A DNA stretch of 64,000 bases from the NCBI GenBank assembly GCA_028753945.1, contig JAPNXP010000010.1, positions 313,042-377,041 of the forward strand. The letters are read 5' to 3'. A model generated the notes under the pieces. That model saw only the letters and a list, made by a program, of their open reading frames with translations. It did not search any database and was not told the DNA's origin. This stretch comes from Hexactinellida sp. DTS-2022 (Eukaryota > Porifera > Hexactinellida). Positions 48,831 to 60,200 of the stretch are shown here, one piece after another; the stretch's first letter is position 1, and every line of letters starts with the position of its first letter. The position numbers and the translations under genes are program-made.

Positions 48831-49466
48831 TTAGTTGGCCCACGATTCTAAGCTAGCTAGCTCCTTGTCCTGTTTCACTTTTTCTTTCCCCCCTTTCGCG
48901 ACAGGTAACGGTTGATCCGGTACAGCTGGCAATCCGTCTAAAACAAGTTTGTAGTCCACATCACTTGTCAGCTCATCGAGCTCAGCTAACAATTCATCGT
49001 CATCAATGTCTTGATAGTTCCCGAAACCTGTCGCAAGTGTCTCGCTTATATCAGACGCAATCTGCTGCTGATCTTGAATGTCACATATCAAATCCTGCAC
49101 ATCGTCGACATCTAACTTCTTGTGTGCCGCTTTGAGAGTTTTCGCGGCTGTACTCATATTTTTAAGCACTTCCGTATTGATGGAAACACTCTCAAGATTT
49201 TCGCGTTGAAACTCAACAGTAGATAGAGTCCCGTCGACTTGTTGTAGCTGTTTTTCTAACCTCTTTTTACGCTTCAATGCTTCGATGGCAACCTTTTTGT
49301 TTGAACTACCATTCTTCCTTGCTATTTCTAACTGTTTAGCTATCTGTGTCTCTAGAAATGCACTTTTCTTCTCCAGCATTAACTGGGTATCTCTCATCTT
49401 AGTAACTGCTACCTCGGGAGAGAGCTCTTCTTTTGACTTCTTTTTAAATATTTTTAATTTTGACAT
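48831..49466 (-). CDS. CHMP4B: ESCRT-III subunit CHMP4 (SNF7)
   Basis: 211 aa in one exon. The SNF7 core (~1-150: LSPEVAVTKMRDTQLMLEKKSAFLETQIAKQLEIARK, ALKRKKRLEKQLQQVDGTLSTVEFQRENLE) is basic, followed by an acidic regulatory half (DIDDDELLAELDEL) and a C-terminal helix ELASLESWAN, which matches the CHMP4 motif that binds ALIX Bro1 domains. The polymer it forms cuts membrane necks in endosomal sorting, cytokinesis and envelope repair. Paralogue letter not resolved. It is the gene just downstream of P5CR on the same strand. Confidence 0.92.
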   Translation of the reverse strand: MSKLKIFKKKSKEELSPEVAVTKMRDTQLMLEKKSAFLETQIAKQLEIARKNGSSNKKVAIEALKRKKRLEKQLQQVDGTLSTVEFQRENLESVSINTEVLKNMSTAAKTLKAAHKKLDVDDVQDLICDIQDQQQIASDISETLATGFGNYQDIDDDELLAELDELTSDVDYKLVLDGLPAVPDQPLPVAKGGKEKVKQDKELASLESWAN

Positions 49467-49864
49467 GACGAATATAATATTTCTAATGATTTAGAAATTA
49501 TTAAATCATTTAGAAAGTATATTCGCTAAACATAATGTCTGGAAGGAAATTTGTATTAAATTTAACCTCAACCTTGCGTATACTGATTTCCCAAGCAAAC
49601 AATTTCAACATAAATCTATGAAAAGTTATTATTATCAGTACTAATTCATGATGCAGCTAATAAGAATTAAGAGATCACTAGATTGTTCTATAATGAATGC
49701 AAAAAATGTTATTTCTCCACGTTGTTAACAGAGTTCGCTAGTTCAATTGATTTCTTGCTTGAAACTTCGACTGCGTCCATCAGTATACCTCTTAGCCCGG
49801 CTCTCTCCAGTGTATGCATAGCGCTAATGCTAATTCCGCCCGGAGAACAAACGTCGTCTTTCAG

Positions 49865-50468
49865 CTAAATATAATAAGGTATTACAGTCAGGTTATTTTA
49901 ACATAAACATTCAACTTCAAGGGACCAAATAATTTGTTAATAATAGAGATACTTCATATTCATAATAAGCGTTCTAAACCTTATACAACTGTATCTATGT
50001 AAGTTGTTAAATTGGAACCATAGGACTTGTTCGTAATATAATTTGTTTCATATTAATTTAAGCAGAAGGAAAATTGTTCACAAAAAGCATATTTAATACT
50101 ATACTCTCGTAATTATTTAGAAAAGTTACCAAAGGCGAATTCAATCTGTTAATATATTCAATATATGCCTAGATTTATTGTATGTTAGATAGAGAAGCCA
50201 GTATATTGTGCCTTATTGAAACTTATTTCTATTTAATTAACGTTACTAGGCTGTTCTAGACTATTCTATTCGATAAAATTATCTATCTATAAAATAATCC
50301 AATTACGTAGTGACCTATTACCTAGTATAACAATCATTGTCGTCAGTAATACTAATTTTAGTAGTTAGAATATTCCAGATTACCCTTGACTATCTATATA
50401 AACATTTACATTTGCTACAAACTAACTAGAATAAACATTTGCGTGCTACAAACTAACTAGAAAAAGAG
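49865..50468. other. P5CR last-intron segment upstream of nested ZFAND2
   Basis: Includes a dispersed repeat shared with 37222-37340 (ACAGTCAGGTT, then GTAAGTTGTTAAATTGG at about 50000) and the ZFAND2 promoter region described separately. No further gene seen. Confidence 0.45.
50368..50401 (+). promoter_or_regulatory. Heat-shock-element-like site and TATA box of ZFAND2
   Basis: GAATATTCCAGAT (50368-50380) has three alternating 5-bp units of the HSF type (GAA-ta-TTC-ca-GAt), the third with one mismatch. A TATA box, CTATATAAA, follows at 50394-50402. The ATG is at 50469. Mammalian ZFAND2A (AIRAP) is induced by arsenite and heat through HSF1, so the arrangement fits the gene, but this site has been read by eye only. 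Confidence 0.5.
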
Positions 50469-51239
50469 ATGGAGCTACCTCACATGGGAACACACTGTTC
50501 AGAACAGAGCTGCCATCAGCTGGACTTCCTACCATTCACGTGCGACCTTTGTCACCACACTTTCTGCGGCGAGCATCGCTCGTACAAAGAGCACAAATGT
50601 ACAGAGGCTTACAGGAAAGATAAGCTAGTACCGACCTGTCCTTTGTGTGGACAGGCATTGCCGGTGAGTAAGGGAATGGACGCCGATCTGAGAGTTAACA
50701 AACACATCGAGATGGAGTGTAAGAGCGAGAATAAAGTCAGGGCTAAAAGTAATGCTTTGTGTAACTTCAGTTCTTGTAAAGTTAGAGAACTCATTCCTGT
50801 AATTTGCGAAGACTGTCACCTTCACTTCTGTCTGAACCACAGATTCCCAGACCAACACAACTGTCAACAAGCGCAGATAAAAGACCGCGGAATGAAGCGG
50901 TTTAACTCCCCATTTGGTGCCGGACCCACTTTGGTAGATCCGACGCCTGCTACGGATCCGCGCTGCCGAATTCTCGCAGCGCCGACACAATCTCTGAAAC
51001 CGAAAAACAAAACCGAAGAGGAGAGACTGCTATCAGACGCAATCGCCGCTTCTCTGAGAGAGCCACAGAGGTCGGGAGCTAGTTCTAGTTCCATTAAACC
51101 TAACACCTCTAAACCCAGCTCAGGTGTGAGAAAAACCGCGAAAGAAATGAAAGAACAAGAAGATTTAGATTTCGCAATCGCACTCTCACTCTCAGAAGCG
51201 GATAATGATAAGAAGAGGAAGACAATCTCTGTTAAATAA
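50469..51239 (+). CDS. ZFAND2B: AN1 zinc-finger protein ZFAND2 (AIRAP/AIRAPL type)
   Basis: 256 aa in one exon. Two AN1 zinc fingers: HCSEQSCHQLDFLPFTCDLCHHTFCGEHRSYKEHKC (~9-44) and CNFSSCKVRELIPVICEDCHLHFCLNHRFPDQHNC (~98-132). Two ubiquitin-interacting motifs follow: EERLLSDAIAASLRE (~184-198) and EDLDFAIALSLSEAD (~232-246). Two AN1 domains plus UIMs is the ZFAND2B (AIRAPL) architecture; a C-terminal prenylation box is absent (end TISVK). These proteins bind the proteasome and p97 during proteotoxic and arsenite stress. The gene lies wholly within the last intron of P5CR, on the opposite strand. Confidence 0.92.
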   Translation: MELPHMGTHCSEQSCHQLDFLPFTCDLCHHTFCGEHRSYKEHKCTEAYRKDKLVPTCPLCGQALPVSKGMDADLRVNKHIEMECKSENKVRAKSNALCNFSSCKVRELIPVICEDCHLHFCLNHRFPDQHNCQQAQIKDRGMKRFNSPFGAGPTLVDPTPATDPRCRILAAPTQSLKPKNKTEEERLLSDAIAASLREPQRSGASSSSIKPNTSKPSSGVRKTAKEMKEQEDLDFAIALSLSEADNDKKRKTISVK

Positions 51240-51411
51240 ATATTTATTTATTCTTACAAGTTTGAGACTTCCTTTACTGTACGTACTTTTACTTTACTAC
51301 TTCATTAATTAAACTCCCCTTATAATACGAGTATATGTACATACCTGAGAAATATGTTTATCTGATGATAACATCATTTTAGAAGCTCCCTACAATAATA
51401 ACAATAATAAA

Positions 51412-51516
51412 TACAGTCGACTCCGCTTAATAGAGCCACCGGTTAATAGATTTTCTGCTTAATCGAGTCAAAATATCCTGGTCCCGAGGTGACTCTAATA
51501 AGCGGAGTCGACTGTA
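51412..51516. repeat. Family B element in a P5CR intron
   Basis: ACAGTCGACTCCGCTTAATA at the left and TAAGCGGAGTCGACTGTA at the right; near-perfect inverted ends flanked by TA. Confidence 0.78.
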
Positions 51517-51671
51517 TAAACAATTTATGAATCACTACAATCTAATGCCACTTACAAGCATGGTGTGTGCGACTAATTTGAGTGCTAACTCTTTGGGTAA
51601 TCCTGCCTTGACTCCTCCGTCTGCTAGAGCTTCGCACACGAGATACATCTACAAGCGAAATATTATATTAC

Positions 51672-51955
51672 ACAGAAAACTCTCGTTATAACGGAGTGCA
51701 AGGGACCTTTGGTGTACTTCGATATAAGCGGAGTAAAATCTACTATAGTAGAACCTTGTTAGTACGAACACTAGGGGACCGTCATAATGCATTCGCCTTT
51801 TCCGGAATTCGTGTAAACTGGTGTCATTAATATTAAAACGGCTTTGAAGGGGACTGAAATAGTGTTCGTATTAACCGTGTTCCAATAACGAGGTTCTACT
51901 ATACTTTATCCGTCTGGGAAACATAAAAAACTTCATTATAACGGAGTTACTATAC
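51672..51955. repeat. Family E element split by a family D element (P5CR intron)
   Basis: The outer ends are AACTCTCGTTATAACGGAGT (51678) and TTCATTATAACGGAGTTACT (ending 51951). The inner family D copy at 51744-51904 begins TATAGTAGAACCTTGTTAGT and ends AACGAGGTTCTACTATA. The inner element matches the one in Miro intron 2. Confidence 0.7.
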
Positions 51956-52342
51956 ATAACATACAAATCGCTTACGTAAGAAGGGCCACACCCACTGAGG
52001 CCGGTTATAACATCCAAGTACTTCTCGTCTACCCTCTGGCAGTAGCCTACGCTGGAGAAGAGACTCTGTATCGTCTCCAGCTGCTCTGCGCTAACGGCGT
52101 GTCCGGGAGAGAAGAGAGTGGCCCCCGAACAGACCTTGGAGGAGGTGTTGGGCATGCTACGGGCCACACACGTGTCAGATGGGAGGTGCTATAGGGTAAT
52201 GCGTGTGTTATTAGATGGGATAATGTAAATTTATACCAAACAGATAATAACTGGATCAAGTGAAAAAAAATTAATATTCTGCTATGAATTTGTTGTAATA
52301 TTTGGAAGAAGTTATACACTCCAAAATGACATAAAAACCAAT

Positions 52343-52510
52343 TACAGTAGTGTTCGCGTAATAGAAGTCGCATTTTTCACGAATCTTTTTGCTAATAGGC
52401 GAACTTGCTCTTAGAGGAACAAAATTAAACATGCAATGATCCCTTGGGGACTGAAAATAACTTGTTAATAGAACAATAATATTGCTACGTATTAGGCGAA
52501 CACCACTGTA
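52343..52510. repeat. Family C element in a P5CR intron
   Basis: TACAGTAGTGTTCGCGTAAT at the left and ATTAGGCGAACACCACTGTA at the right, inverted, TA-flanked. Confidence 0.76.
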
Positions 52511-52830
52511 GTAAAATCTAAAGAATTTTGAAGGCTCTATTATTGGTCAAATATTTACTAATACGTAATAATAATTAAAAATAAACAATCTCACTTGTTT
52601 TATTGTTGATAGTTTGACACCTGCCGCCACTGATATGACGAGGTGTCTGTGTGTCTCAATTCGCGAGTATAGCTCATCCAGCACGGTCGGTACCCTATCT
52701 GGCTTAACGGCTATTATAATAGCGTCACATTTCGCAGGAATAAGTGCGTTTTCAGGAAAAGCTTGTACTTGCAGTTCTTTCTATAATAAAATGAATAAAT
52801 TAAGAGTACTACAGTAAACTCCCGTTATAT

Positions 52831-53490
52831 CTGTTATGGACATGTCTGTTATGGACATGTCTGTTATAGACATGTCTGTTATGGACATGTCTGTCATAGA
52901 CATGTCTGTTATAGACATGTCTGTTATAGACATGTCTGTTATGGACATGTCTGTTATAGACATGTCTGTTATAGACATGTCTGTTATGGACATGTCTGTT
53001 ATAGACATGTCTGTTATAGACATGTCTGTTATAGACATGTCTGTTATAGACATGTCTGTTATGGACATGTCTGTTATGGACATGTCTGTTATGGACATGT
53101 CTGTTATAGACATGTCTGTTATGGACATGTCTGTTATGGACATGTCTGTTATAGACATGTCTGTTATAGACATGTCTGTTATGGACATGTCTGTTATAGA
53201 CATGTCTGTTATAGACATGTCTGTTATAGACATGTCTGTTATAGACATGTCTGTTATGGACATGTCTGTTATAGACATGTCTGTTATAGACATGTCTGTT
53301 ATAGACATGTCTGTTATAGACATGTCTGTTATGGACATGTCTGTTATAGACATGTCTGTTATGGACATGTCTGTTATAGACATGTCTGTTATAGACATGT
53401 CTGTTATGGACATGTCTGTTATGGACATGTCTGTTATGGACATGTCTGTTATGGACATGTCTGTTATAGACATGTCTGTTATAGACATGT
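52831..53490. repeat. 44-unit 15-bp minisatellite in a P5CR intron
   Basis: Exactly 44 head-to-tail copies of CTGTTATRGACATGT (660 bp). Only one position varies regularly: R is A in 26 units and G in 18. One unit has an extra change (gtcata). Each junction reads RGACATGTCT, which fits the p53-family half-site RRRCWWGYYY, with 5-bp spacers. The unit length is a multiple of three and stop-free, so long frames run through it on both strands; these are not genes. It arose inside a pogo-like element: ACAGTAAACTCCCGTTATAT stands at its left edge and CAGTTATTACGAGAGT at its right. Confidence 0.97.
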
Positions 53491-53507
53491 TCAGTTATTA
53501 CGAGAGT

Positions 53508-53735
53508 CAGGGGCGTAAACTTGGGTTGTGCGGCAGGTGTCTGGTACCTTGGCATTTCCAAACCGAAACAACCCCAAATATAATTTAGCAGATGCCGAGC
53601 TAAATATAACTTTTTCATAATAAAAAACTAAGACACAAAAACACAAAATGAAATATTCATTCAGAAAAATAAATAACTAGGGGACGAAGAAAGTGTCTTC
53701 GCACCTTGGGAATTTTAACGAAGTTTACGCCCATG
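53508..53735. repeat. hAT-like MITE next to the minisatellite
   Basis: CAGGGGCGTAAACTTGGG at the left pairs with CGAAGTTTACGCCCATG at the right. The interior is AT-rich and non-coding. It sits in the right arm of the same pogo-like element that carries the minisatellite (outer limits about 52811-53742). No clear 8-bp duplication. Confidence 0.65.
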
Positions 53736-54062
53736 ACTGTATATTAAAAATTAGGAATTTCTGATGTTATTTACTCTACTAGCAAGGTGATTTTTGAATA
53801 TCAAAAATTTACCATTGCAATCTGGGTATTTATACTAACGCATTGGCCAATATATAAGTATAATTACAATTTAAATAACTATTTCGTACCTGAATTTGTT
53901 CTCTCGCCAGGGGACACGGCTCCGAAACAAATAAGTTTTCTGGCTTGAAATTACCTACATTTGTATAACAATACTAAATATATGCTTGTAAATTAGAGTA
54001 TACTACAATTACCTGATCGAATAAAGCCGGCAATAAGTGCTGTAGATATCTTCCCGCATGCA

Positions 54063-54216
54063 GGTCAAAACGGCCACAAACCAAAATGGCCACAACCAAA
54101 ACGGCCACAACCAAAACGGCCACAACCAAAACGGCCACAAACCATAAGGGCCACAAGCAAAAACGGCCACAAACCATAACGGCCACAAACCATAACGGCC
54201 ACAAACCATAACGACC
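54063..54216. repeat. Left inverted array of the MULE (17-18-bp units)
   Basis: GGCCACAACCAAAACGGCCA and close variants, head to tail. The first ~49 bases match the reverse complement of the right end exactly; deeper units differ in order (gccacaaaccataac types), as expected if unit number changes by slippage. Confidence 0.88.
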
Positions 54217-54458
54217 AAACAATAAGTGACTAAGTGACATGATGTAATTCTAAGTCTTTTTGTAATATATGCAAAGTGATTTGTCATAACATGGATAATG
54301 TTTGCGAACATACCCAAACAAATATCTATTGAAACAATAAGTGACTAAGTGACACGATGTAACTGTAGGTCTTTATGTAATTTGTGCAAAGTGATTTGTC
54401 ATAACATGTATAGTATTTAATGAAGAAATATTCAAATTATGTATTCTTCAATTACGTA

Positions 54459-56303
54459 ATGGCAGATAATACACAAAATGGAGCAGTCGTTGATCCTTGC
54501 CTTGAATGTGGTCAAACGGTTAGGCCGAGGCAGGAGGCTATTCAATGTGAGGAATGTTCATTCTGGCAGCATCGGACATGTAAAACAGGCATTACACGTC
54601 TCTGTTATCAGAGAGCTGTACGAGGGGAAGAAGAAATAGTCTGGAAATGTGCATCTTGTTTAGAAATTAACTATGAATTACATTCTGAAGATTTCAGCAT
54701 TATCAGTTCACCCAGTGATTTTCCAAACACGTCCTTCGCACATTCTACTAATGAATCCCCTCAAGATGTAAGTAATGATCAGTTATTCGATTATTCAGAC
54801 GAAATCGAGATCCATAATATAACGACCGAAAATACAAACTTTCCAGATTTTATTATTCCAGAAGCTTTACACGAATCCTCACTAGATGGATCGATTTTGG
54901 AGTCTGGTAACACTCAAACTGATGACAACCCAACATTCCGTGTGATTGCTAACTCCTCACAGAAGGGAAAAGATTTGTTGATAGAAAAGGTTGGGTATTC
55001 GTATATAATAAAACTTCGCAGGAACGCAGTGAACTATTGGCGTTGTAGCGTACGTAATAAGTTTTCCATTTGTCCAGCAACGATTATTCAACGCGGGAAT
55101 TTGTTTACTCATGGGGCCAATGATCACAACCATTCTGCAAACCCAGAAGTAAATTTTAAGCCAGAGGTAAAGCTATCTGTATTCAATAGAGCCAAACGTG
55201 AAATATTTACTCCTGCTGCTGAGATTGTTGAAGATGCTCTCATTCCTTATTCAAATAATTTACATCCTGGGCTTCCAAGTCTTTCTAATCTTGCAAGAGC
55301 TGCAAACCGCGCCAGACAGGCTATTCGACCTCAAGATCCCGTTGATTTAGATTTCGAAATTAATATGGACTATATTCCTGGAGGATTCTTACGTGGAGAC
55401 ATCAAGGTTGATGGAAGAAGACACCTCATATTTGCTACAGACCAAATGCTGAATATTTTATGCAGGGCTAAGAGGTGGTATTTGGATGGGACATTTAAAA
55501 TCGTTAAGGAGCCATTTACCCAGCTATTTTCAATCCATGCTTTTGTAAAATCTGAAAGCTCAATTAAGCAACTACCATTAGTGTTTGTTCTAATGTCGGG
55601 TAAACGCAAAAAGGACTACAGAAAAGTACTCAAGAGGGTATTAGAATGTCTTCCCGGTGCACCAGCTGTTAAAAGTGCTGTGATGGATTTTGAATCTTCT
55701 TTATGGAAAGTCTTCCCAATAGTGTATCCAGGAGTGGAACTTCAAGGTTGTTCCTTTCACTGGACACAGGCAGTATGGAGGAAGATCCAACTCTTGGGTT
55801 TGCAGCCACTATATTTGAGTAACAATTCAACTCATGATTTTTGCCGAAGATTAATGGCTCTACCACTTTTGCCATGTGAGCATATAGAACCTGCTTTCAG
55901 AATTCTAGAAGGACGCGTCAGTAATGATATTGAACATCAACTAACAACTTATATAGATAATACATGGATAACTGGACAGTGGAAACCTAAAGATTGGTCC
56001 GTATTTAATCAAACTGTACGTACCAATAACGACGTCGAAGGATGGCATTTAAGAATTAATACTAGAGCTCGAAGAGGAAAGTTGCAATTTTATGTTCTGA
56101 TCGAACTTTTACATAAAGAATCTCAGATAATCACTCTACAATTACATCTAGTATCTCAAAATAAATTGAAAAGATACCAAAGACTAACTTACACGAGAAT
56201 GCAAGCTGCAATTTTCACTCTATGGGATAAATATTCACAAGGAAGAGTAACTGTGAGTCAAATGTTGCGCGCTTGCTCAAGGCTTAATGGTCCTCAAATA
56301 TAA
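54459..56303 (+). CDS. MULE transposase with PHD-type and FLYWCH zinc fingers
   Basis: 614 aa without introns from the ATG at 54459 (MADNTQNG); an in-frame ATG at 54420 would add 13 residues. Order: PHD-like finger (CLECGQ...CEECSFWQHRTC...WKCASC, ~11-65), acidic linker, FLYWCH domain (~160-225: NYWRCSVRNKFSICPATI ... HGANDHNH), and a MULE DDE core with WYLDGTFKI (D343), VMDFESSLWKVFP (D410), GCSFHWTQAVWRKI and NNDVEGWHLRIN (E527). All three acidic residues are present and no stop or frameshift breaks the frame, so it could be active. It reads antisense to P5CR. Confidence 0.88.
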   Translation: MADNTQNGAVVDPCLECGQTVRPRQEAIQCEECSFWQHRTCKTGITRLCYQRAVRGEEEIVWKCASCLEINYELHSEDFSIISSPSDFPNTSFAHSTNESPQDVSNDQLFDYSDEIEIHNITTENTNFPDFIIPEALHESSLDGSILESGNTQTDDNPTFRVIANSSQKGKDLLIEKVGYSYIIKLRRNAVNYWRCSVRNKFSICPATIIQRGNLFTHGANDHNHSANPEVNFKPEVKLSVFNRAKREIFTPAAEIVEDALIPYSNNLHPGLPSLSNLARAANRARQAIRPQDPVDLDFEINMDYIPGGFLRGDIKVDGRRHLIFATDQMLNILCRAKRWYLDGTFKIVKEPFTQLFSIHAFVKSESSIKQLPLVFVLMSGKRKKDYRKVLKRVLECLPGAPAVKSAVMDFESSLWKVFPIVYPGVELQGCSFHWTQAVWRKIQLLGLQPLYLSNNSTHDFCRRLMALPLLPCEHIEPAFRILEGRVSNDIEHQLTTYIDNTWITGQWKPKDWSVFNQTVRTNNDVEGWHLRINTRARRGKLQFYVLIELLHKESQIITLQLHLVSQNKLKRYQRLTYTRMQAAIFTLWDKYSQGRVTVSQMLRACSRLNGPQI

Positions 56304-56445
56304 AGAATATTAGATGTTGACCCTTCTATTTACGTATTATTTTATAGTAATCAATATAATAAGTCTGCTATTGAGTGTCATTTTTGTAATTTCCTTATTT
56401 AATAAATAATAATTGCTATCACTTCTAATGATTTAAGTAAGGCGT

Positions 56446-56593
56446 CTTCGTTTGTGGCCGTTTTGGTTTGTGGCCGTTTTTGCTTGTGGCCCTTATGGTT
56501 TGTGGCCGTTTTGGTTTGTGGCCGTTATGGTTTGTGGCCGTTTTGGTTGTGGCCGTTTTGGTTGTGGCCATTTTGGTTTGTGGCCGTTTTGAC
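56446..56593. repeat. Right inverted array of the MULE
   Basis: TTTGTGGCCGTTTTGG units in reverse orientation to the left array, ending GGCCGTTTTGAC. It contains the same rare 'gcttgtggcccttatgg' variant as the left array, at the corresponding place. Confidence 0.88.
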
Positions 56594-56639
56594 TAGAAAT
56601 CATCTTCCCACCTCCTACGAAACCTAGCCTGGATAGCAT

Positions 56640-57285
56640 ATCGAAATAAATCAGAATTATTTGAGAATTGAGCCTACAATTCAGTTTATATACCTTTGAG
56701 TCCTAGGCTTACAAATCGTTGTTTACTCAGCACAGATGCCATAGAATAGTTATTGTAATTATTAATAATTGTCGAAGGTGAACACTCAAAACTTAGTTGA
56801 CTATAAATTTAAGAAAAGCGTAGGAAAGCTGTAGGAATTATATTACAACAGAAATGAGGTGAAATACGACAACAATTGAGACTGAATTACAAGACAAATT
56901 AATTGATGTGAAATTAGTTGAATAAATATATTCCAAAGAAAACTTTGAGGTGCTAATTAAATTAAGCAAGTTGATCCTCTTTTTATGGAGGCAAATTAAG
57001 TTAAGTCTCTAGTTTTTCAATTAATTCGAACAAACAAACAAAATCCCTTGAGTATATTATTTAGGATTATATACTTGATATTTGTGTAAATATGTAATTA
57101 ATGAGCCAATTAACAATATGACTTAGTACCAGTGAAAATAAATATTACATGTGGGAATTATGTAATGCAAAATCCGCTAAAACAACGCAATTAATAACTA
57201 GAATAGTCATCTGAAAGTGATTAAAACCTAACACACTAATTGTAAGTAGAAATAGTATAAAGAAAGACAGTTGTTTGTTGACAAT
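56640..57285. other. Spacer between P5CR and NUP160
   Basis: AT-rich. It should contain the P5CR promoter and 5' UTR and the NUP160 3' UTR. No repeat or further exon seen. Confidence 0.4.
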
Positions 57286-60200
57286 TTAAATATTTTCCAT
57301 TTGCTGAGCGAGTACGTATTGCTGACTACTTTTTTTCTTCAAAAAAATTAGATATTCACTCGCTTGCTCCAATTCTGTAAAATAATCTTGTAACTGTAAT
57401 TCAAGCGCTTCGTATAATCCATGTAAATGTGAATCCTCTGGCATTTTTCTCAGCTCGCTTAGCAACAAATCTATATAAGTATACGGTAGTTTCACAGCAT
57501 TATAAGTGCCTGTGTCAGGGTCTATTGATTTCAGCGTGTACTTTAGACCGAATTTCTCCTGCGCTATTTTAAGATCACATTCCTTTCTGTCTCCAAGGAC
57601 CGCGCGGATGTACGCTAGCGCGAGATTCCCCGCCTGTTCCAGCTGCGAATATTTGAGGTACATGGCTAGGAGCTTTTCAGGTGCCAAACGCGAAATATCG
57701 TCCTTCAGCCACTGCGGAAGTGCGAAACTCATCGACAGCAGCCTTCCCACCACCCAGAGCAGCGCCTCTATTCTATCAAACCCTTGTATCGACTCCAAAT
57801 ATCGCTGTAGGAGACTCCAGGCCTGCCCATCTGGAGGCAGTCCGTCAGTGCAACACTCTATGCCCGTGTCGTTATAGCTGAGCCACTGTATGTAAGCCAG
57901 GCCATCCTCGTCTGATAGCAGATCCGAACCAAGGATGGACATCTTAACACAGCGAGTAGCCAGAGTCTCGAACAGGTGCTGTCTGCACAGATTCAGTTTA
58001 TGCGAGATGGTCATAGCCATGTCGAACAGGCCGTATTGCACCAATAGAATCATGATTTCCTCGTGAGTACAAGTGGACGTTGTGAGCGGAGTCGCCGTCT
58101 CTTCGATCTGAGCCAACTTTAGCTGCGCTAGTACGATCAGATATTCGTTCTCCAGGTCTTTAAGAGACAGGACTTCTATGTGAGGTGTGAGAGAGGCATC
58201 TTCTTCTGAGGGGACAGGGGACATGTTTTCGCGCTTTTTCTTGCTCTCAGGGGGTTCATCTGTTACCTTATTCGCGACCTGTACCCTGGGTCTAGGCTTT
58301 ATCACGAAAGCTGACTTCTCATCCACCAGGTATAGGGCGTTAATAGCCGCGAGGTAGCACTTGGCTTGCTTCTGTAGAATCGGTATAGTGGCCATCTCAC
58401 AGCCTAGCCGCATTACACACTCGTACATCGCCACGGCTGCCTTTCTATAGTTACCGCGGTTTGAGTAGAAGGAATGCAGAAGTGAGTAATAGTTCCCCGT
58501 CGTGACGTCAACAGATCTCGCGCGCGACTCGAGAACATCCTCGATATCCTTCTCGACTCCCGAGTAAGAAAAGGTGCACAGGAGTTTAAACTTCTTCTGA
58601 TTGCACAGTTCTATAACGAATCTCTTCATACAGTCCTTCCGCCTAGACTGTTCGGGGTTGCTTAGCATGGCCACATACGCCTCTTCGTAGAGAGAGAGGT
58701 CCAGGGAGTTCTTGAACTGTATGGACCACAGGTTGCTGATCAGCTGATCACCAGCTGGGGCCACTTCCAACGCATGTTTCGCAATCTTTATTATCATATC
58801 GGAGGCCTGTTCTTGCTCGAAGAGGTCTATTAAATAGAGACAGTATAGGACGGTGTGGTCTGATTTAGTGTCTTCTACTTTCTCTGCTACAATCGCGTAG
58901 AGAAATGAGTCGGGATTTGTGGACAGTAAGCCTGATAGTGTGGAGAGAAACAGCTGAGCGGATTTATTAACCTTCCCAACCTTGAGATAGTACTGTGCCT
59001 TATAGTGCCTAATTGGGTATTCTAGCACTGGGCTGTATAGTGACTCGAGTATGTGTAGAGTGTATTGTAGCTCTGTCAGATAGCGGTTCTCGAATAGGAA
59101 TGTTAGAAACTGTATTACAGGTATCCCTGGTGCGAGTAGCTCGCAAACTGCATTGTTGTATTCGCATAGAACGTAGTGCAGAGGAGCTATGGGGAGAGAT
59201 TGATCTCCTGAAGGCACAACATTTCTAGTGTGCAGTTTCAATTGAATATCCTGTAGACACTTGTTGTTAATGAATTGTAGAGGTATTATCCTAGATACCG
59301 TGTTGGTAATAGGAATGTTTGTGATATCTAAACATGTGTTGCTGTATATTGTTGTGTTTGTGTCCAGAGTTTTTGAAGTGAATTCAGATACATTTTGTAG
59401 CAAGTGGAATGTTATTAGTGAATTCGTTAACTCGGGAAGAATAAACGATTTTATTGTATTAAATGCGTCGCTTTCCTGTGAATGAGCGTTCGTGTCTTTC
59501 TCTCGCAAAATAAAACATGTCAACAACAACATACTCCAACAGATCTCCTTCTTTCGCGAGACAGAATCGCGAAAATTCGCGTTTAGTATCGATATCCCGA
59601 ATTCGCTGTTAAACAGACGCGAAACAGTGTTAAAACAAGAGTCCATCTCCTCTACATTAATAACATTAGACTGAACGTAGAAAGGCTCCGAGAGAGGAAG
59701 CTTCAATAAATCTGAAATACTCTGTATGGCTGGTATCAGCTGTCCCACCTTCCCAATGCTAGCTCTAATCTGCGAGTGCTTAACCGGACTCTCGGCCCTA
59801 CACACCTCTCTATCTGCTATCAACATGCAGTCCAGGAGGTACCCCACAAACCCTATTAAATCCACGTCGTTGTCCAACAGATCTCGCAGATACATGTCTA
59901 GTCCCACGAAACAGCTGGCGACCTTACTGGCCAGGCTCATAACGCGCTTCATCCTATCGATCAGCTGTGCAGACAGAATCCTAACCGCCTGTAAGCTAGG
60001 GCTAACACTCGGCTGCGTATACAGCTGTTCCAGGAGCTGAATTGGGGCGTAGAATATGAGCGAGTGTTTCGCGATTATAAAATGCATTCCTTTCTCCACC
60101 ATTACTCCCAGAGGATAGCAGGCTATGGATTGGTACTGAAGACAGGCTTGGTAGAACTTAGACCACACTTGTGTTTGGAGGTCTCTTCGCAGCTGATTTT

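Follow-up and report, generated by a model that had tools for sequence, protein, structure and literature searches.

As seen in Table 1, the first exon of a gene for the proline-making enzyme pyrroline-5-carboxylate reductase (P5CR) in the glass sponge Hexactinellida sp. DTS-2022 is split by a Mutator-like (MULE) DNA transposon. The window, that is, the whole stretch of 64,000 nucleotides that was analysed, is contig 2:313042-377041 of a 112-Mb assembly of 18 contigs. The P5CR gene runs on the minus strand from 56639 down to 49709. Read in this direction, exon 1 begins with MLSRLGFVGGGK, which extends to the right copy of a short duplication; past the left copy it goes on with GKISTALIAGFIRS, followed by a GT donor. 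The two halves had been read in the same way in a preliminary description of the locus, which also joined them into an exon of 73 nt, ending in phase 1 and in frame with exon 2; with one duplication copy counted, both points were confirmed. The same description gave five further exons, open to the stop. Their openness was borne out but the count was too low, as six exons follow, including a microexon of 45 nt. The microexon was found by scanning for an open AG...GT segment resembling P5CR (best score 43, next 11). A stop directly after exon 5 (IRL*) was discarded as intron read-through, since exons 6 and 7 follow. Methionine as the ancestral residue of codon 13 was likewise discarded: with the terminal C counted as part of the element, this codon reads ATA.

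Table 1. Positions of the P5CR gene and of the inserted element in the window.
Feature	Position	Strand	Details
P5CR exon 1, 5' part	56602..56639	-	ATG into codon 13; contains one duplication copy
P5CR exon 1, 3' part	54013..54047	-	joined with 5' part, 73 nt, phase 1
P5CR exon 2	53890..53954	-	65 nt
P5CR exon 3	52595..52780	-	186 nt
P5CR exon 4	51976..52188	-	213 nt
P5CR exon 5	51556..51648	-	93 nt
P5CR exon 6, microexon GASKMMLSSDKHISQ	51345..51389	-	45 nt; ...GASRMMLTSDKHISQ towards the end of the Oopsacas protein
P5CR exon 7 with stop	49709..49864	-	156 nt
Left target-site duplication copy ATCTTCCC	54048..54055	.	8 bp
MULE DNA transposon	54056..56601	+	2,546 bp, ends G...C; antisense to P5CR gene; ends common to family copies
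Left TIR	54064..54206	+	92% identity to right TIR; overlaps array of 16-bp units, 54066-54217
Transposase ORF, uninterrupted	54420..56303	+	627 aa; MULE domain, FLYWCH finger and a PHD-like finger under the Pfam cut-off; D356, D423 and E540 as putative DDE residues
Right TIR	56450..56593	-	16-bp array 56450-56591
Weak cryptic GT donor in element end (CTA/GTCAAA)	56592..56593	-	if spliced to AG before 54039, would give a length-preserving frame
Right target-site duplication copy ATCTTCCC	56602..56609	.	8 bp

With one duplication copy, the seven exons give a coding sequence of 831 nt (276 aa) that carries no stop or frameshift, and GT-AG borders are present at 6/6 introns. Searched exon by exon, both the N-terminal Rossmann domain (PF03807) and the P5CR dimerisation domain (PF14748) score over their cut-offs. 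The protein retains 36 of 40 near-invariant positions (start Met counted), where near-invariant means at least 90% conservation in 231 relatives, a set drawn from searches with both sponge genes and including many bacteria. G9 and G11 of the loop are invariant in all 226 rows with a letter there (231 aligned). Among the matches listed (best 120 of 2,800), the closest is a protein of Oopsacas minuta, with 76% identity over 82% of the query. It is uninterrupted across the insertion point (MLSRLGFVGGGKITSALVAG) and ends three residues past the counterpart of the microexon. Residues 5-107 also match the structures of human PYCR1/2 (e.g. 2ger) with an E of 7e-13, for a query that had M for I at position 13; compared with the human enzymes, the sponge exon 1 is interrupted. 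Intron 2 holds a 15-bp minisatellite of 44 copies (window 52830-53490), and similar arrays occur on many contigs, many of them at 94-98%. By eye, a frame of the plus strand, opposite to the gene, terminates within P5CR intron 6, at window positions of about 51000-51239.

The limits of the element were set by comparison of related copies. The window reads TATCTTCCC at 54047-54055 and CATCTTCCC at 56601-56609, letters that the preliminary description had given correctly, one base apart, and had taken for a 9-bp duplication with one mismatch. The ends of the family copies rule this out. They are G(CATGCAG)GTCAAAACGG on the left and CCGTTTTGAC(TAGAAAT)C on the right; in the subfamily of the window copy, the left end is GCATGCAG followed by GTCAAAACGG and the right end CCGTTTTGAC followed by TAGAAATC, and a second subfamily differs in its outer octamers but has the same initial G and final C. 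By these shared ends, the element occupies 54056-56601 and is flanked by an exact 8-bp duplication, ATCTTCCC; the mismatch in the 9-bp repeat was only apparent, the odd base being the C with which the element ends. An exact 8-bp duplication is present in 13 of the 14 two-ended loci, and 6/8 bases match in the remaining one, while the two possible 9-bp readings (one for each side) fit just 4/14 and 5/14. By our own arithmetic, the naive chance of an exact 8-mer at the predicted ends is 4^-8.

For this count, 25 loci were inspected, some of them overlapping one copy, and 14 had an end motif on each side, oppositely oriented. The other 11 were left out as the motif pair was absent: ten had one end or none (L048, L049, L050, L016, L021, L055, L056, L057, L059, L061), and L063 had two ends in the same orientation. 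The searches for family copies scored the best 70 of 1,512 and the best 40 of 52 candidates, and all family counts are thus lower bounds. The 18-base left end has 11 exact matches in the genome. Additionally, two of the 14, on contigs 11 and 1 (L046 and L047), have identical duplications and flanks, and because of this they probably represent one insertion that was itself duplicated, in a segmental duplication carrying the element.

The element has terminal inverted repeats, as do Mutator-like elements; they are about 144 bp long (144 aligned columns, 92% identity), and both are composed of 16-bp tandem units. The MULE domain of the transposase (PF10551) reaches 41.7 bits against a cut-off of 27.6, which is the MULE/DDE transposase of a Mutator-like element; FLYWCH also scores over its cut-off, and the PHD-like N-terminal finger reaches 15.2 bits against a cut-off of 24. 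Among the best 120 of 295 relatives, D356 is conserved in 120/120, D423 in 117/120 and E540 in 116/116 rows with a letter. By the pattern known for MULE transposases, these three residues are the putative catalytic triad. The element is probably autonomous.

Mutator-like elements are described with target-site duplications of 8-11 bp (PMC6446971), a range that includes the 8 bp found here. In the same source, the Phantom group of invertebrate Mutator-like elements has duplications of 8-10 bp and TIRs of 18-613 bp or none, and is listed with no finger, FLYWCH or SWIM. Compared by described features, the window element resembles Phantom in its DDE transposase with MULE and FLYWCH, its long TIRs and its 8-bp duplication; it differs in its sponge host, its PHD-like N-terminal finger and the 16-bp units of its TIRs. 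The main text of PMC6446971 contains neither 'Sponge' nor 'Porifera'. Rehavkus, as given there, has a PHD finger, 9-bp duplications, TIRs of 26-400 bp and a minisatellite before the 3' TIR. The window element resembles Rehavkus in its TIRs and minisatellite, and perhaps in its sub-threshold PHD-like finger; its 8-bp duplication, FLYWCH and tandem units inside both TIRs set it apart, and its family does not share the 9-bp duplication of Rehavkus.

A near-identical sister of the window copy, L040, is located at contig 2:5366714-5369276, with an exact 8-bp duplication of its own. Over the 2,546 bp, the two differ by 3 substitutions and one 17-bp indel. Two of the substitutions adjoin the indel in the tandem units, and the third is H231R in the ORF. 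L040 sits in sense orientation at about residue 233 of a 440-codon frame of the sulfotransferase family (E 4.2e-26). With two near-identical copies, each breaking an open frame, the family looks recently active. The likeness of the sister sets no age limit for the window insertion, as the window copy could be the donor. A preference of the family for coding frames was considered and dropped: the joined insertion site lies in a frame of at least 100 codons at 8 of 14 loci, and random window positions reach 67% (of 3,000), so that no enrichment is claimed.

At a probability of roughly 0.9, an autonomous, recently mobile MULE was cut and pasted into exon 1 of the seven-exon P5CR gene, leaving an 8-bp duplication and a probable null allele. 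An insertion in the cofactor-binding loop, into a gene intact until this single and probably recent event, had been proposed in the preliminary description, and it is now supported by the exact duplication, the transposase, the near-identical sister and the 831 nt that hold no other lesion. These sequence features suggest that the gene was intact until the insertion. The insertion is probably recent, because the duplication is exact, the transposase uninterrupted, the sister near-identical and the coding sequence free of other lesions. A Mutator-like transposon, probably autonomous and recently mobile, was inserted at codon 13 in exon 1 of the canonical gene, presumably by cut and paste, and 8 bp of the target were duplicated. 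The insertion cuts off the start codon, together with the GxG that forms part of the NADPH-binding loop, from the remainder of the enzyme. The ORF of exon 1 continues into the element for 48 aa altogether; since an unspliced message would enter the element and stop after these 48 residues, the interrupted allele is probably null. The reduction of P5C would then be carried by a paralogue on contig 10 or by an uninterrupted allele.

The insertion is known from a single assembly and from sequence alone. The present case convinces as a new example of exon insertion by a MULE, a known type of event with an ordinary mechanism. Among the literature matches listed for sponge P5CR, splicing exon insertions and P5CS loss, no title concerned this locus, and the word MULE is absent from the main text of two glass-sponge genome papers (PMC10282587, PMC10280926). 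The locus shows cleanly how a core metabolic gene of a glass sponge read before and after its disruption by a transposon.

Whether the animal has lost the enzyme is a separate matter. At slightly under even odds, one haplotype alone carries the insertion, the empty allele makes a normal enzyme and the filled one was retained in the assembly. This is compatible with the insertion of an autonomous MULE as the best explanation, as it concerns the animal and not the allele. The exact duplication, the want of further lesions and the near-identical sister would all fit a segregating insertion, and the assembly shows a single copy of the locus. An empty-site copy was not found elsewhere in the assembly, because the flank 56602-57300 has one place in it. 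The search with 49700-54046 recovered the locus and, besides repeats, one partial match, on contig 11; as it scored the best 40 of 5,457 candidates, the negative result leans on the P5CR profile searches, in which all 13 and all 5 candidates were scored and the sole further exons were those on contig 10 and in a weak match on contig 11. Two more PF03807 matches, on contigs 7 and 12, are both without a PF14748 match.

The contig-11 sequence (L008, 11:1114223-1114764 and nearby) is a partial duplicate of the P5CR 3' region with 80-85% identity. It matches window positions 51209-51409, 51515-51882 and, nearby, 49001-49469. Exon 5 has a frame break, and exon 7 has no match within the 3,081 bases compared. 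The match to the dimerisation domain reaches 17.6 bits, short of the family cut-off of 25. This match is best read as a decayed duplicate of the 3' part of P5CR.

A second gene had been named in the preliminary description as one way out, with a search for another PYCR gene as the check, and an intact intronless paralogue is indeed present on contig 10 (L001/L005, 10:1458257-1459033). It consists of one open frame of 309 codons (285 aa from the chosen Met), has both P5CR domains over the cut-off and is 40% identical to the window P5CR. In the tree it groups with Oopsacas and six other rows, in a clade that has 100/100 support and a long branch of 1.53; identity to these relatives is 70-93%. 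All 8 clade members share the changes A16 to P, G100 to C and P121 to L at conserved positions, and 6/8 have P177 to V. The deeper place of the clade in the tree was not used, because the clade is flagged together with a bacterial row, which calls for long-branch caution. These comparisons mark the contig 10 gene as an old, maintained paralogue. The paralogue retains 30 of the 40 near-invariant positions, and its activity is uncertain because it differs at the other 10. Redundancy of the two reductases is plausible, and the locus provides a concrete natural test of it in glass sponges.

The presence of an intact paralogue also favours permanent loss, in which the MULE insertion starts the pseudogenisation of P5CR, and the diverged paralogue, or proline from food or microbes, suffices. 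We regard this as possible, the odds being against it. Part of the case lies in the pathway. In whole-genome profile searches, P5CS, the enzyme by which proline is made from glutamate, gave 0 candidates with TIGR01092 and with PF00696, two profiles that found matches in 14/14 control genomes (TIGR01092 below its cut-off there); ornithine aminotransferase and proline dehydrogenase did give matches. TIGR00407 gave two weak matches, of 33 and 20.9 bits against a cut-off of 317. The ornithine aminotransferase profile is covered from end to end by three matches on contig 11 (201, 174 and 147 bits), each below the cut-off of 378, which applies to the whole protein; proline dehydrogenase has matches over the cut-off at two places on contig 10. 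However, a search that goes exon by exon can miss a gene of short exons, and the absence of P5CS is for this reason a lead and not a result. Moreover, the window P5CR shows no decay and keeps 36 of its 40 near-invariant positions, so that any loss would be very recent. The locus points to a possible absence of P5CS. It is improbable that this is a sponge without P5CS that is losing its canonical P5CR through a young MULE, with the paralogue, apparently specific to glass sponges, as sole enzyme, and in which sense insertions of the element, such as that of the sister copy, can be spliced in frame with seven extra codons.

It is hardly credible that splicing removes the element like an intron, the donor CTA/GTCAAA being joined to the acceptor CTACAG/CACTT to give MLSRLGFVGGGKMISTLIAGFIRS, the original length and a working gene. 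Within the 340 nt that start at the ATG and the final 588 nt of the other side, seven in-frame GT-AG pairs lie around the element, and one preserves the length; it would give GGGKMISTLIAGF in place of GGGKISTALIAGF, a product that retains GxG and has at position 13 the commonest residue, M (202/239 rows). However, this product has isoleucine at position 14, found in 0/239 rows (one row gapped there; valine in 7), and its donor is matched or beaten by 34% of the 3,645 minus-strand GT sites in the window, as against less than 1% for each of the six real P5CR donors, from which the score matrix was built and which it hence flatters. Rescue of the allele by splicing is, on these scores, unlikely.

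The ends of the element deserve a further remark. Some introners are DNA elements with TIRs and duplications of 3-9 bp (PMC9860276). The present element likewise has TIRs and a short duplication, and its ends hold GT and AG dinucleotides whose use in sense orientation would leave a length divisible by three; the window copy differs in being antisense, in having its own transposase and in its length of 2.5 kb. In sense orientation, the ends are CAG/GT on the left (54056-54065) and TAG/ on the right (56589-56601), and 8% of GT sites score at least as high as the donor CAG/GTCAAA. This placement of GT and AG may be due to chance. Removal from GT to AG leaves 13 nt, which together with the 8-bp duplication make 21 nt and stay open in the host frame of the sister L040.
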